Shown here: in pieces, positions 8,680 through 12,219 of the stretch
How positions within the stretch are numbered: position 1 is the first letter of the stretch
Layout of the letters: every line of letters starts with the position of its first letter
NCBI RefSeq assembly: GCF_000308455.1
Contig: NZ_BAFP01000110.1
Coordinates: 1 to 64,000 of the forward strand
From: Nocardia abscessus NBRC 100374
GTDB taxonomy: Bacteria; Actinomycetota; Actinomycetes; Mycobacteriales; Mycobacteriaceae
Length of the DNA stretch: 64,000 nucleotides
Direction of reading: 5' to 3'
Notes under the pieces: generated by a model
The model's input: the letters and a program-made list of their open reading frames with translations, nothing else
What the model was told of the DNA's origin: nothing
Databases searched by the model: none
Program-made: the position numbers and the translations under genes

Positions 8680-9239
8680 TACGGGGTGCCTCCTGACATC
8701 GGTTGCCGAGGTGCGGCCGGGACAGCCGGCACACGGCTAGTCAACCATCAGCATTCGGTGCGGGTGAGCCGATTCGGCCAACCGCGCCGGCGGCGTTCGC
8801 GAACCTGGAGTTCCAGGTGAAAGGTCCCCTTACACAGATCAGTCCCCGGTAGTCTCGTCGAAACCGTGAGCCTCAGTCGTCGCTGTGACTCCGGTGTTTC
8901 AACTGGCTGCCGGGGGCCTAGCCGGATCTTGGATCGGTGCTTCACTGCCTGCCGACGTCTCAGCGAGCAATGCACACACCTACCGGTGTTCCGGTGTACC
9001 TACTAGTCTCCTCCACTTTCCTCCCCAGTCAAGAGGCATGCACCGCCGATTCCCAGCGCCGTGTCCGGCGCGAACAGCCCTGCGGCACACCGCCGCAGAC
9101 ATCCTTCAGCAAACCGATCTCGCCGTGTACCCTTGGCAACCAGACCAGCTAATTGTGACTGGGGTCACATAGGCGTTCGCGCGCACGCCTTCCGCCACCG
9201 CCCCGCCAGGGCCACCGGATCCGTCACTACGGAGACATC
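8680..9239. other. 560-bp intergenic region upstream of the scn-type operon
   Basis: The region lies between the divergent VOC gene and the nitrile-hydratase-superfamily operon. Apart from the Crp-type palindrome at 9154-9169, I found no convincing gene. Short open frames lack ribosome sites and domains. I looked for a cobalamin or metal riboswitch because the enzyme is cobalt-type, and saw no B12 box. The length leaves room for a long leader or further operator sites. Confidence 0.5.
9154..9169. promoter_or_regulatory. Crp/GlxR-type binding site
   Basis: TGTGACTGGGGTCACA is a perfect TGTGA-N6-TCACA palindrome, the classic Crp/GlxR half-site pair in actinobacteria. It ends 70 bp before the ATG of the first scn-type gene, so cAMP-dependent control of the operon is likely. 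Activation versus repression depends on the unmapped transcription start. Confidence 0.65.
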
Positions 9240-9665
9240 ATGAGCGCACCGAACCGATTCGACGAGCTGCAGCACCGCGTCGCGGACCTCGCACCGGTGT
9301 TCCGCGAACCGCTGGACTCGCCCTACGAGATCTCGAACGCATTGTTCGCCGCACTGCGGCACGTTCTGCACGACGTGGGCGGCCAGCCGGACATTCCGGT
9401 CGAGTACCGGGAGAAAGAGGAGGAGCCCTGGGAGATGAGCACCTACGTCACGTGTGAATGCCTCGGTTGGCGTGGCGTGTGGAACTCCGAGGAACGCAGG
9501 CGAGCGGAGAACGACCTCGGCGCGACGCTGTACTTCGGTCTCCCCTACTACGCGCGCTGGGCGACCGTCGCTGCGAAGACCTTGGTCGCCAAGGGACTGA
9601 TCACTCCTGACGAACTGTCGGCCAAGCTGGACGAAGTACGCGCCCGACGGGAGGCGCGCGCATGA
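9240..9665 (+). CDS. scnB: Thiocyanate-hydrolase beta-like subunit (NHase beta N-terminal type)
   Basis: This 141-residue protein resembles the N-terminal half of nitrile hydratase beta. The visible family features are FREPLDSPYEISNALFAALR and CECLGWRGVWNSEERRRAEN. In thiocyanate hydrolase this half is a separate beta subunit. It is the first gene of a four-gene operon whose members overlap by 4 bp each, so the subunits are translationally coupled. The start ATG has GGAG upstream. A three-subunit nitrile hydratase such as the toyocamycin enzyme is an alternative, so the symbol is by family position, not proven activity. Confidence 0.7.
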   Translation: MSAPNRFDELQHRVADLAPVFREPLDSPYEISNALFAALRHVLHDVGGQPDIPVEYREKEEEPWEMSTYVTCECLGWRGVWNSEERRRAENDLGATLYFGLPYYARWATVAAKTLVAKGLITPDELSAKLDEVRARREARA

Positions 9666-9961
9666 CGAGGAAGTACCGGATCGGCGATCGCGTCCGGATC
9701 CGGGAGGCCACCTCGATGTTCCACACCCGCACCCAGGCCTACACCCGCGGCCGCACGGGTGTCGTCGTCGAGCACCGGCCGGACTGGATCATCCCGGAGG
9801 ACGAGGCGTGGGGGCGCGAGGACGGCCGCGTCGAGCCGTTCTACGTCGTGCGGTTCCGCCAGAAGGATTTGTGGCCCAAATACACCGGTTTCGACGCCGA
9901 CACCTTGGAGACGGAGGTTTCCGAGCACTGGCTCGAGCCCGCAGAGGAGGATGCCCAGTGA
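9662..9961 (+). CDS. scnA: Thiocyanate-hydrolase alpha-like subunit (NHase beta C-terminal type)
   Basis: This 99-residue SH3-like protein corresponds to the C-terminal half of nitrile hydratase beta. Features include YRIGDRVRIREATSMFHTRT, RGRTGVVVEH and FYVVRFRQKDLW. In the standard nitrile hydratase these residues are fused to the preceding subunit; separate genes are the hallmark of thiocyanate hydrolase and other three-subunit enzymes. The ATG overlaps the previous stop (ATGA), and its own stop overlaps the next GTG. Confidence 0.7.
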   Translation: MTRKYRIGDRVRIREATSMFHTRTQAYTRGRTGVVVEHRPDWIIPEDEAWGREDGRVEPFYVVRFRQKDLWPKYTGFDADTLETEVSEHWLEPAEEDAQ

Positions 9962-10668
9962 GCCGGACGCACGACCACGAGGCGCACGCGCCGATCCAGG
10001 CGAGCGAACAGATCAGCGAGTTCGAGGTGCTCGAGACGGCGATCCGGGAACTCGCCATCGAAAAGGGGCTGTTCTCGCAAGAAGACCACCGCAGGTTCGC
10101 CGAGTGGGCCGAATCCGTCGGCCCGCACGGCGGATCGAAACTGGTCGCGAAGGCGTGGACGGATCCCGACTTCAAGGCGCGCCTGCTCGCCGACGGGACC
10201 GAGACGTGCAAAGAGGTCGGCATCGACTGGCGCGACCCGACCGGATCCGGGACGCCGAGTGACTACACCTACTTCTACGTGCTGGAGAACACTCCCCAGG
10301 TGCACAACGTCATCGTGTGCACCCTGTGTTCGTGCTATCCGCGGCCGGTGCTCGGGATGTCGCCGGACTGGTATCGCACCCCCAATTACCGTCGGCGCCT
10401 GGTGCGCTGGCCCCGCGAGGTGCTCGCCGAATTCGGCTTGCACTTCCCGCCCGAGGTCGAGATCCGGGTGCACGATTCGAATCAGAAATCGCGGTTCATG
10501 GTGATGCCGATGCGCCCGGAGGGCACCGAGGGCTGGACCGAGGAGCAACTGGCCGCCATCGTCACCCGGGACACCATGATCGGCGTGGCGCTGCCCCAGG
10601 TCGACTGGACCGCGCAGCAGCCGCCGAACCGAGCCGAGTCCACCACGAGGAAGGATGGCCACCGGTGA
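9958..10668 (+). CDS. scnC: Cobalt-type catalytic subunit (thiocyanate hydrolase gamma / NHase alpha)
   Basis: This 236-residue catalytic subunit carries the metal claw VCTLCSCYPRP, with C121, C124 and C126. Thr between the first two Cys marks the cobalt type rather than the iron type (CSLCSC). In active enzymes the second and third Cys are oxidised to sulfinic and sulfenic acid. The downstream YRRRLVRWPREVL segment matches the conserved Arg-rich helix of the family. It would hydrate thiocyanate to carbonyl sulfide and ammonia, or a nitrile to an amide. Substrate choice cannot be decided from sequence. Confidence 0.8.
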   Translation: MSRTHDHEAHAPIQASEQISEFEVLETAIRELAIEKGLFSQEDHRRFAEWAESVGPHGGSKLVAKAWTDPDFKARLLADGTETCKEVGIDWRDPTGSGTPSDYTYFYVLENTPQVHNVIVCTLCSCYPRPVLGMSPDWYRTPNYRRRLVRWPREVLAEFGLHFPPEVEIRVHDSNQKSRFMVMPMRPEGTEGWTEEQLAAIVTRDTMIGVALPQVDWTAQQPPNRAESTTRKDGHR

Positions 10669-10994
10669 CGAGCGGCCCGTACGACGTCCTGCTGCACACA
10701 CTGGATCCCGAACCGCGCCGGGAGAGCACGTTGCCCGAACTCGACCGCAAACCCGATCCCTGGGAGTCCAGCATGCAGGCCACGTGTGAGTGCCTGTCCT
10801 GGCGCGGCGCCCTGGACAACCTGGAACGCCGCCGTGCCGAGGACGCGCTCGGCGAGACGATCTATCACGACTTCCCGGTACGAACCCGCTCGGTCGTCGT
10901 CACCGCGCACACACTGATGGATCGTGGCGTCATCACCCCGGCGGAACTGCGCGCCCGCATGGACGCCGTCCGCGAGCGGTTCCACCGGCAGTAG
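10665..10994 (+). CDS. Activator/cobalt chaperone of the P15K/P14K type
   Basis: This 109-residue protein shares CECLSWRGALDNLERRRAED with the beta-type first subunit of the same operon. That relationship is typical of the P15K activator of thiocyanate hydrolase and P14K/NhlE chaperones, which deliver cobalt by subunit exchange. It starts at a GTG overlapping the previous stop (GTGA). It is followed by the hairpin terminator at 11032-11067. No separate cobalt transporter gene is present in the window. Confidence 0.7.
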   Translation: MTSGPYDVLLHTLDPEPRRESTLPELDRKPDPWESSMQATCECLSWRGALDNLERRRAEDALGETIYHDFPVRTRSVVVTAHTLMDRGVITPAELRARMDAVRERFHRQ

Positions 10995-11031
10995 AGCCTG
11001 CCAACCGACCGGACCCACGTAGACACAGACC

Positions 11032-11067
11032 GAAACGGCCCGGAACCTCTTGGTTCCGGGCCGTTTC
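11032..11067. terminator. Strong bidirectional hairpin terminator
   Basis: GAAACGGCCCGGAACC, loop TCTT, then the exact complement forms a 16-bp perfect stem between the scn-type operon and the convergent initiator tRNA gene. A short T-containing stretch (CTTTGT) follows on the plus strand and GGTCTGTGT on the minus strand. It probably ends transcription from both sides. Confidence 0.8.
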
Positions 11068-11072
11068 CTTTG

Positions 11073-11146
11073 TAGCGGGGACAGGATTTGAACCTGCGAC
11101 CTCTGGGTTATGAGCCCAGCGAGCTACCGAGCTGCTCCACCCCGCG
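11073..11146 (-). tRNA. Initiator tRNA-fMet (CAT anticodon)
   Basis: The minus strand folds into a full cloverleaf with anticodon CAT in the loop CTCATAA. Two hallmarks identify the initiator: an unpaired first position (C1 against U72) and three consecutive G-C pairs in the anticodon stem (TGGG/CCCA). The T-arm reads GGTTCAAATCC. The 3' CCA is not encoded. No integrase or duplicated tRNA end lies nearby. Confidence 0.95.

Positions 11147-12219
<1,073 letters not shown>

Follow-up and report, generated by a model that had tools for sequence, protein, structure and literature searches.

What does the nitrile hydratase-like operon of Nocardia abscessus NBRC 100374 encode, a thiocyanate hydrolase (SCNase) or a nitrile hydratase? 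The operon lies in the first 64,000 nucleotides of contig NZ_BAFP01000110.1 (RefSeq assembly GCF_000308455.1, forward strand), a stretch that was analyzed as a whole and is called the window. The original prediction, made from the letters of the window, had proposed a cobalt-type SCNase operon behind a Crp-type site. Four co-directional genes were found at 9240–10994, each junction being a 4-base overlap, and both the genes and the palindrome upstream of them stood at the predicted positions. Judged by models, structure matches and phylogeny, the four genes most likely form an SCNase operon, scnB-scnA-scnC-P15K, of a type present in many actinomycetes.

Identity of the enzyme

Both curated NCBIfam cut-offs agreed with this assignment. 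The product of the third gene, P0003, scored 397.3 bits against the SCNase gamma model TIGR03887 (cut-off 291.45) and 231.2 bits against the nitrile hydratase alpha model TIGR01323 (cut-off 249.85), exceeding the first and staying below the second. Among the matches listed, the TIGR03887 scores were bimodal, with at least 364.8 bits above the cut-off and at most 230.2 bits below it. The two beta halves of the window reached 41.5 and 62.4 bits against the model of the single-gene nitrile hydratase beta subunit (TIGR03888), short of its cut-off of 152.2. The three subunit genes, in the order 1, 2, 3, matched the beta, alpha, and gamma chains of the SCNase structure 2dd4. The top PDB match of P0001 was 2dd4_B, the beta subunit (E 7.8e-40; 56% identity over 111 amino acids of the printed stretch of the chain), that of P0002 was 2dd4_A, the alpha subunit (E 3.1e-23; 51% over 92 amino acids), and that of P0003 was 2dd4_C (E 2.1e-91). 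The structure is the ScnA/ScnB/ScnC enzyme of Thiobacillus thioparus (PMC7193024).

The catalytic subunits were then compared in a maximum likelihood tree of 91 rows, ToyJ not being among them. A branch with 100/100 support and a length of 1.35 carried the window, T. thioparus ScnC, and 50 SCNase rows on one side. The other side held 39 rows, namely the Pseudonocardia thermophila nitrile hydratase alpha subunit and 38 nitrile hydratase-like rows, so labeled when they fell below the SCNase cut-off or were annotated as such. The phylogeny against ScnC and nitrile hydratase alpha, which had been proposed together with the prediction, thus placed no nitrile hydratase-like row inside the SCNase branch, and the view of the operon as a cobalt-type SCNase rather than a standard nitrile hydratase was upheld.

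The residues around the metal pointed in the same direction. The cobalt-type claw CTLCSC was present in P0003 as predicted, and alignment equated Arg129 of the window with gamma-Arg136 of T. thioparus and Arg86–88 with ScnB Arg90–92. The claw cysteines and serine, gamma-Arg136, and ScnB Arg90–92 were all kept in the window and were near-invariant in both groups of SCNases (A and B) described below. ScnB Arg90 and Arg91 presumably hold or contact the oxidized claw cysteines. The claw was followed by Y-P-W-P in 51 nitrile hydratase-like rows; since some such rows carry Arg, Arg instead of Trp at this place is not sufficient alone.

In a rival reading, the operon encodes a split-beta nitrile hydratase acting on an organic nitrile. 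P0003 does share 53.5% identity over 185 amino acids with P. thermophila nitrile hydratase alpha, and split-beta enzymes annotated as nitrile hydratases exist beside nickel/cobalt transporters, with alpha subunits that can show Y-P-R-P after the claw (L134, L033, and L165). However, the two split-beta alpha subunits of the Streptomyces type that were scored behaved in the opposite way from P0003, which is below the nitrile hydratase alpha cut-off and far above that for SCNase: L134 reached 264.4 bits with the nitrile hydratase alpha model and 228.0 with the SCNase model, and L236, a plasmid relative, reached 267.5 and 230.8 bits. The Y-P-R-P leads L033/L134 (one gene) and L165 were dropped, being nitrile hydratases by the NCBI model to the extent that they were scored (L134 and L236). 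With SCNase on a separate, long-stemmed branch and no amidase among the seven flanking genes of the window scanned with Pfam, we regard the split-beta nitrile hydratase as improbable.

A toyocamycin-type nitrile hydratase (ToyJKL) of a nucleoside antibiotic pathway, which likewise has three subunits, is very unlikely, as the flanking Pfam families do not fit deazapurine synthesis and none of 392 genomes of the genus taken as Streptomyces exceeded the SCNase cut-off; a hand-written FolE motif for a toyocamycin cluster, for which there was no positive control, had no match in 44 loci (40 of that genus, at most 20 kb each, plus L134–L137).

Operon layout and two groups of SCNases

The prediction of a two-gene beta polypeptide before the catalytic subunit, with a P15K-like gene behind it, was borne out by Pfam, the PDB matches, and position (Table 1). 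The fourth product, P0004, was barely above the NHase_beta_N cut-off (24.2 vs. 21.5 bits) and is a paralogue of P0001 (49% identity over 79 amino acids; 36% over 80 amino acids to ScnB). Its P15K-like label derives from position and from this homology to P0001 and ScnB, with the T. thioparus P15K itself outside the comparison. The alpha/gamma family had a single match in the genome of the window. Residues 143–201 of P0003 (10384–10560) also matched the NHLP leader-peptide family of ribosomally synthesized and post-translationally modified peptides (57.9 bits, cut-off 50.9); nitrile hydratase alpha subunits and NHLP-type leader peptides are known kin.

Table 1. Positions of the putative SCNase genes, the metal-binding claw, and the upstream elements in the window
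Feature	Position	Strand	Basis
scnB-like gene P0001, 141 aa, N-terminal half of beta polypeptide	9240..9665	+	Pfam NHase_beta_N, 71.3 bits
scnA-like gene P0002, 99 aa, C-terminal half of beta polypeptide	9662..9961	+	Pfam NHase_beta_C, 74.2 bits
scnC-like gene P0003, catalytic gamma subunit, 236 aa, GTG start	9958..10668	+	Pfam NHase_alpha, NCBIfam, tree
P15K-like activator gene P0004, 109 aa, GTG start	10665..10994	+	Position and homology to P0001/ScnB
Metal-binding claw C121-T-L-C124-S125-C126, then Y-P-R129-P	10318..10335	+	Alignment, P0003 residues 121–126
Exact Crp/GlxR-type palindrome TGTGA-CTGGGG-TCACA, TGTGACTGGGGTCACA	9154..9169	.	Pattern scan, conservation
Conserved upstream block CTTCAgcAAa..cGATCt..CGTGTAccCTTGG, possible promoter (inferred)	9104..9136	+	Alignment of 21 Nocardia upstreams

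As an argument for SCNase, the layout held in part. The order B-A-C occurred in all 80 SCNase loci compared, with a P15K-like homologue next in 79 of them; in the exception, L114, the contig stops about 260 bases behind the match. However, cobalt nitrile hydratases are usually ordered beta-alpha-activator (PMC7193024), and the order nthB-nthA-accessory gene was also seen in the nitrile hydratase loci examined. Therefore, only the split beta distinguishes the layout, and it proved neither necessary nor sufficient. In 14 of the 80 SCNase loci, a single open frame covered both ScnB and ScnA (L110, L112–L114, L116, L118, L120, L123–L125, L127, L130, L131, and L133), so that the split arose or disappeared inside the family. 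All 14 are mycobacterial or come from metagenome bins assigned to mycobacteria and actinomycetes. Azospirillum and Roseomonas had both beta halves in one annotated gene, and a Streptomyces plasmid carried a two-gene beta beside an alpha subunit above the nitrile hydratase cut-off.

Within the SCNase branch, 30 tree rows formed a group supported at 100/100 (group B), comprising T. thioparus, gamma- and alphaproteobacteria, a deltaproteobacterial bin, and most mycobacteria. The other 22 rows, including the window, were designated group A and came from Nocardia, Rhodococcus/Prescottella, Streptosporangiaceae, Thermomonosporaceae, Micromonosporaceae, three mycobacteria, an actinobacterial bin, and Ktedonobacter. 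The operon of the window thus falls outside the supported group containing T. thioparus, which is new in this analysis. The fork of group A was unsettled in the tree, and a constraint holding its 22 rows together was not rejected (p-AU 0.507). Two sampled genomes of the window's genus carried group B genes (L030 and L032).

For locus comparisons, group A comprised L054–L103 (n = 50), 21 placed by the tree and 29 by identity; L073 is the operon of Rhodococcus jostii NBRC 16295. L086 is a tblastn span with two stop codons, and its tree row ends at the first stop. In the residue-column comparison, L140, the same Ktedonobacter gene as L086, was counted with group B, and L139 duplicates L111. In the upstream-motif scan, the groups were assigned by identity alone, so that L104, L105, and L138 fall in group A. 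The claw varied in places: CALCSC, with Thr changed to Ala beside the metal ligands, was seen in 28 group B rows, mostly mycobacterial (including L109, L110, L116–L133, L025, and L027–L030), a form absent from both T. thioparus and the window; the claw of L032 was CSLCSC.

A gene of the CbtA type, a predicted cobalt transporter subunit, lay within about 6 kb in 22 of the 50 group A loci. These were all 16 Rhodococcus/Prescottella loci, an association that is new here, and 6 of the 18 other loci from outside Nocardia. Three members of the CbtA cluster and one CbtB were confirmed by Pfam. In the 30 group B loci, clustering at the threshold applied yielded no member, and CbtA beside the operon was consequently rejected as a general rule, which fails there and in Nocardia. 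Across the genus, 133 of 148 genomes had a CbtA gene, that of the window genome being on another contig. SCNase genes on plasmids had CbtA/CbtB or a HupE-type gene adjoining.

The flanking genes of the window that matched a Pfam family encoded a fatty acid hydroxylase, a histidine kinase, a response regulator, and glyoxalase-like, transglycosylase-like, and UPF0182 proteins; together with a tRNA-Met gene, they gave no further hint on the mechanism. The tRNA-Met gene (11072–11146) stands just behind the operon and was also found there in 7 of 16 named Nocardia loci (L054–L057, L062, L065, and L103), where it may mark an insertion point. Six proteobacterial SCNase loci (L105–L108, L111, and L115) had an ATP-binding cassette transporter behind the operon, consisting of an NMT1-type binding protein, a permease, and an ATPase, and a LysR-type gene near. 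These genes were assigned by clustering, with one member each of three of the gene types tested with Pfam, and the transporter is a candidate thiocyanate importer.

Another possibility to consider is that the group A enzyme is SCNase-like but acts mainly on a different small cyano compound (cyanide, cyanate, selenocyanate, or a plant-derived thiocyanate ester), with thiocyanate incidental. This would accord with the position of group A outside the supported T. thioparus branch, with the three ScnA columns of its own, and with the seven flanking genes scanned, among which no sulfur-oxidation gene was recognized. Yet the claw cysteines and serine and the arginines named above are identical in both groups, and we give this reading little credence. 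A broader version, in which the group A enzymes of aerobic actinomycetes make up an SCNase subtype with a function of its own, seems doubtful but somewhat less so. Such a subtype would have its own CbtA/B uptake in Rhodococcus, carbon control through cyclic AMP and GlxR in Nocardia, and a substrate or role unlike that of the T. thioparus enzyme, such as the scavenging of plant or host thiocyanate or the turnover of another small cyano compound.

The Crp/GlxR-type site upstream

The palindrome TGTGACTGGGGTCACA ends 70 bp ahead of the ATG of the scnB-like gene and has the exact form TGTGA-N6-TCACA that had been described. With one mismatch allowed, the pattern occurred three times in the window, 0.78 being expected. 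Since 6 of 100 shuffled sequences also reached three sites, the loose palindrome is weak evidence alone. The exact pattern was found at 15 sites in the 8.4 Mb genome and at none for the reversed pattern; judged by open frames and codon bias, the other 14 sites all fell outside coding frames. One of them was upstream of an isocitrate lyase gene, and aceA is repressed by GlxR in Corynebacterium glutamicum according to PMC7999487. The GlxR consensus given there, TGTGA-N6-TCACA, is identical to the palindrome of the window.

Regions of 300 bases upstream of 29 Nocardia loci were aligned, and eight with identical upstreams were removed before counting, leaving 21 distinct regions. The exact site was present in 9 of the 21, and 13 had a site with at most one mismatch; the corresponding values for 4200 shuffled regions were 0 and 0.5%. 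The alignment also revealed the conserved block listed in Table 1. The palindrome sits 17 bases behind this block in the window, and the close spacing was kept across Nocardia, whereas the start of the site varied from 35 to 183 bases ahead of the gene start. Therefore, the site seems tied to the promoter region. The block was retained in L008, L061, and L063, where the palindrome had decayed. Should the block be the core promoter, the palindrome would be close to where transcription begins, and the simpler assumption would then be repression. A simple sigma-70 promoter and terminator scan of 8680–11150 found nothing, and GlnR-type boxes upstream were limited to scattered matches with one mismatch.

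The genome also encodes a Crp/GlxR homologue with 446 bits to 3i54 and 381 bits to 3r6s, which we take to be M. tuberculosis Crp and C. glutamicum GlxR, respectively. Thus, conservation within Nocardia and the presence of a regulator support the palindrome as a predicted Crp/GlxR site. Its identity to the GlxR consensus and its retention across part of the genus are new here. Elsewhere in the genome (L248, contig C179), a short open frame with a sulfate-permease match was preceded, at a distance of about 165 bases, by an exact Crp-type site, and a carbonic-anhydrase-domain match lay about 3 kb away on that contig.

Proposed function, distribution, and known systems

In the proposed mechanism, ScnB, ScnA, and ScnC would form the enzyme unit, and the P15K-like protein would load cobalt into ScnC and aid the oxidation of two claw cysteines. 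Thiocyanate would bind the Co(III) center and be hydrolyzed to carbonyl sulfide and ammonia; the ammonia could serve as a nitrogen source, or the operon could detoxify thiocyanate. A GlxR/Crp-type regulator dependent on cyclic AMP would govern transcription, by activation or repression, so that the carbon state would feed into the thiocyanate trait.

Several observations weigh against this explanation. T. thioparus belongs to group B, its gamma subunit is 62% identical to that of the window, and the two groups differ at three near-fixed ScnA columns; a literature search that hardly reached subscription papers found no biochemically characterized member of group A. A CbtA-type gene was present within about 6 kb in none of the 16 Nocardia loci, and CbtA and SCNase are not tied, because 7 of the 15 genomes of the genus that lack CbtA have an SCNase gene. 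The Crp-type site had at least two mismatches in 8 of the 21 Nocardia upstreams, and the exact site was not seen upstream of SCNase loci outside Nocardia. As to the fate of carbonyl sulfide, the window genome had five beta-carbonic-anhydrase matches, none of which could be singled out as a carbonyl sulfide hydrolase.

Thiocyanate degradation had been called a notable trait for a mycolic actinomycete, and this part of the prediction failed. A match over the SCNase cut-off was found in 54 of 148 genomes of the window's genus and in 113 of 401 of its family, so that the trait is not rare there. In a sample of the phylum, 9 of 396 genomes had such a match, all nine within the window's family, although in the 80-locus set Streptosporangiaceae and further members of the phylum have it as well. 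The class of a Thiogranum genome contributed 10 of 369 genomes. These counts across ranks make the SCNase gene patchy but ordinary in the family. In one family genome (G228, C1:1825330-1825719), SCNase gamma matches fell in three pieces of a short stretch, which looks like decay or an assembly error.

The published record agrees that such genes are known. Actinobacteria are well represented in a published SCNase tree (PMC10098168). In Mycobacterium smegmatis, MSMEG_6266 and MSMEG_6267, annotated as SCNase beta and gamma, are listed with values of 3.68 and 3.42, apparently fold changes, under nitrogen limitation (PMC4617892); for a PII deletion strain at 1 mM nitrate, the values given are 2.37 and 2.35 (PMC11001197). 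N. cyriacigeorgica lacks the thiocyanate genes of N. farcinica according to PMC3751702. As a discovery, the operon is modest, since genes of this kind already have a name in a curated family model and had been pointed out in earlier genome papers. It is very probably a well-formed SCNase operon of a known family shared by many relatives, useful rather than surprising.

If this assignment is true, thiocyanate turnover to carbonyl sulfide and ammonia would be common in soil Nocardia and Rhodococcus rather than a specialty of sulfur-oxidizing chemolithotrophs, with a bearing on soil carbonyl sulfide fluxes and on bioremediation strains. The divergent SCNases would also allow substrate choice to be compared within the nitrile hydratase superfamily, and the proposed coupling of thiocyanate use to the carbon state through GlxR could be tested directly.

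Among known systems, the SCNase of the chemolithotroph T. thioparus shares with the window the three subunits, the claw, and the arginines (identities of 62% for ScnC, 56% for ScnB, and 51% for ScnA). L141, whose gamma subunit is 93% identical to T. thioparus ScnC, has the gene order of the window. T. thioparus differs in its membership of group B and in its ScnB and ScnA of 157 and 126 amino acids, those of the window being shorter (141 and 99). MSMEG_6266/6267 belong to the same family in another mycolic actinomycete, by published annotation, and their listing under nitrogen limitation fits a nitrogen role. The mycobacterial loci compared differ from the window in being mostly group B, with the claw CALCSC and ScnB and ScnA often fused. 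N. farcinica is of the same genus and would share the trait through a thiocyanate degradation cluster annotated in 2013; this is based on annotation, and the paper says synthesis in one sentence and degradation in another (PMC3751702). Finally, the Rhodococcus cobalt nitrile hydratases L238 and L239 belong to the same superfamily and have the beta-alpha-activator order, but they have a single beta gene, have an amidase nearby in both cases, and lie outside the SCNase branch.

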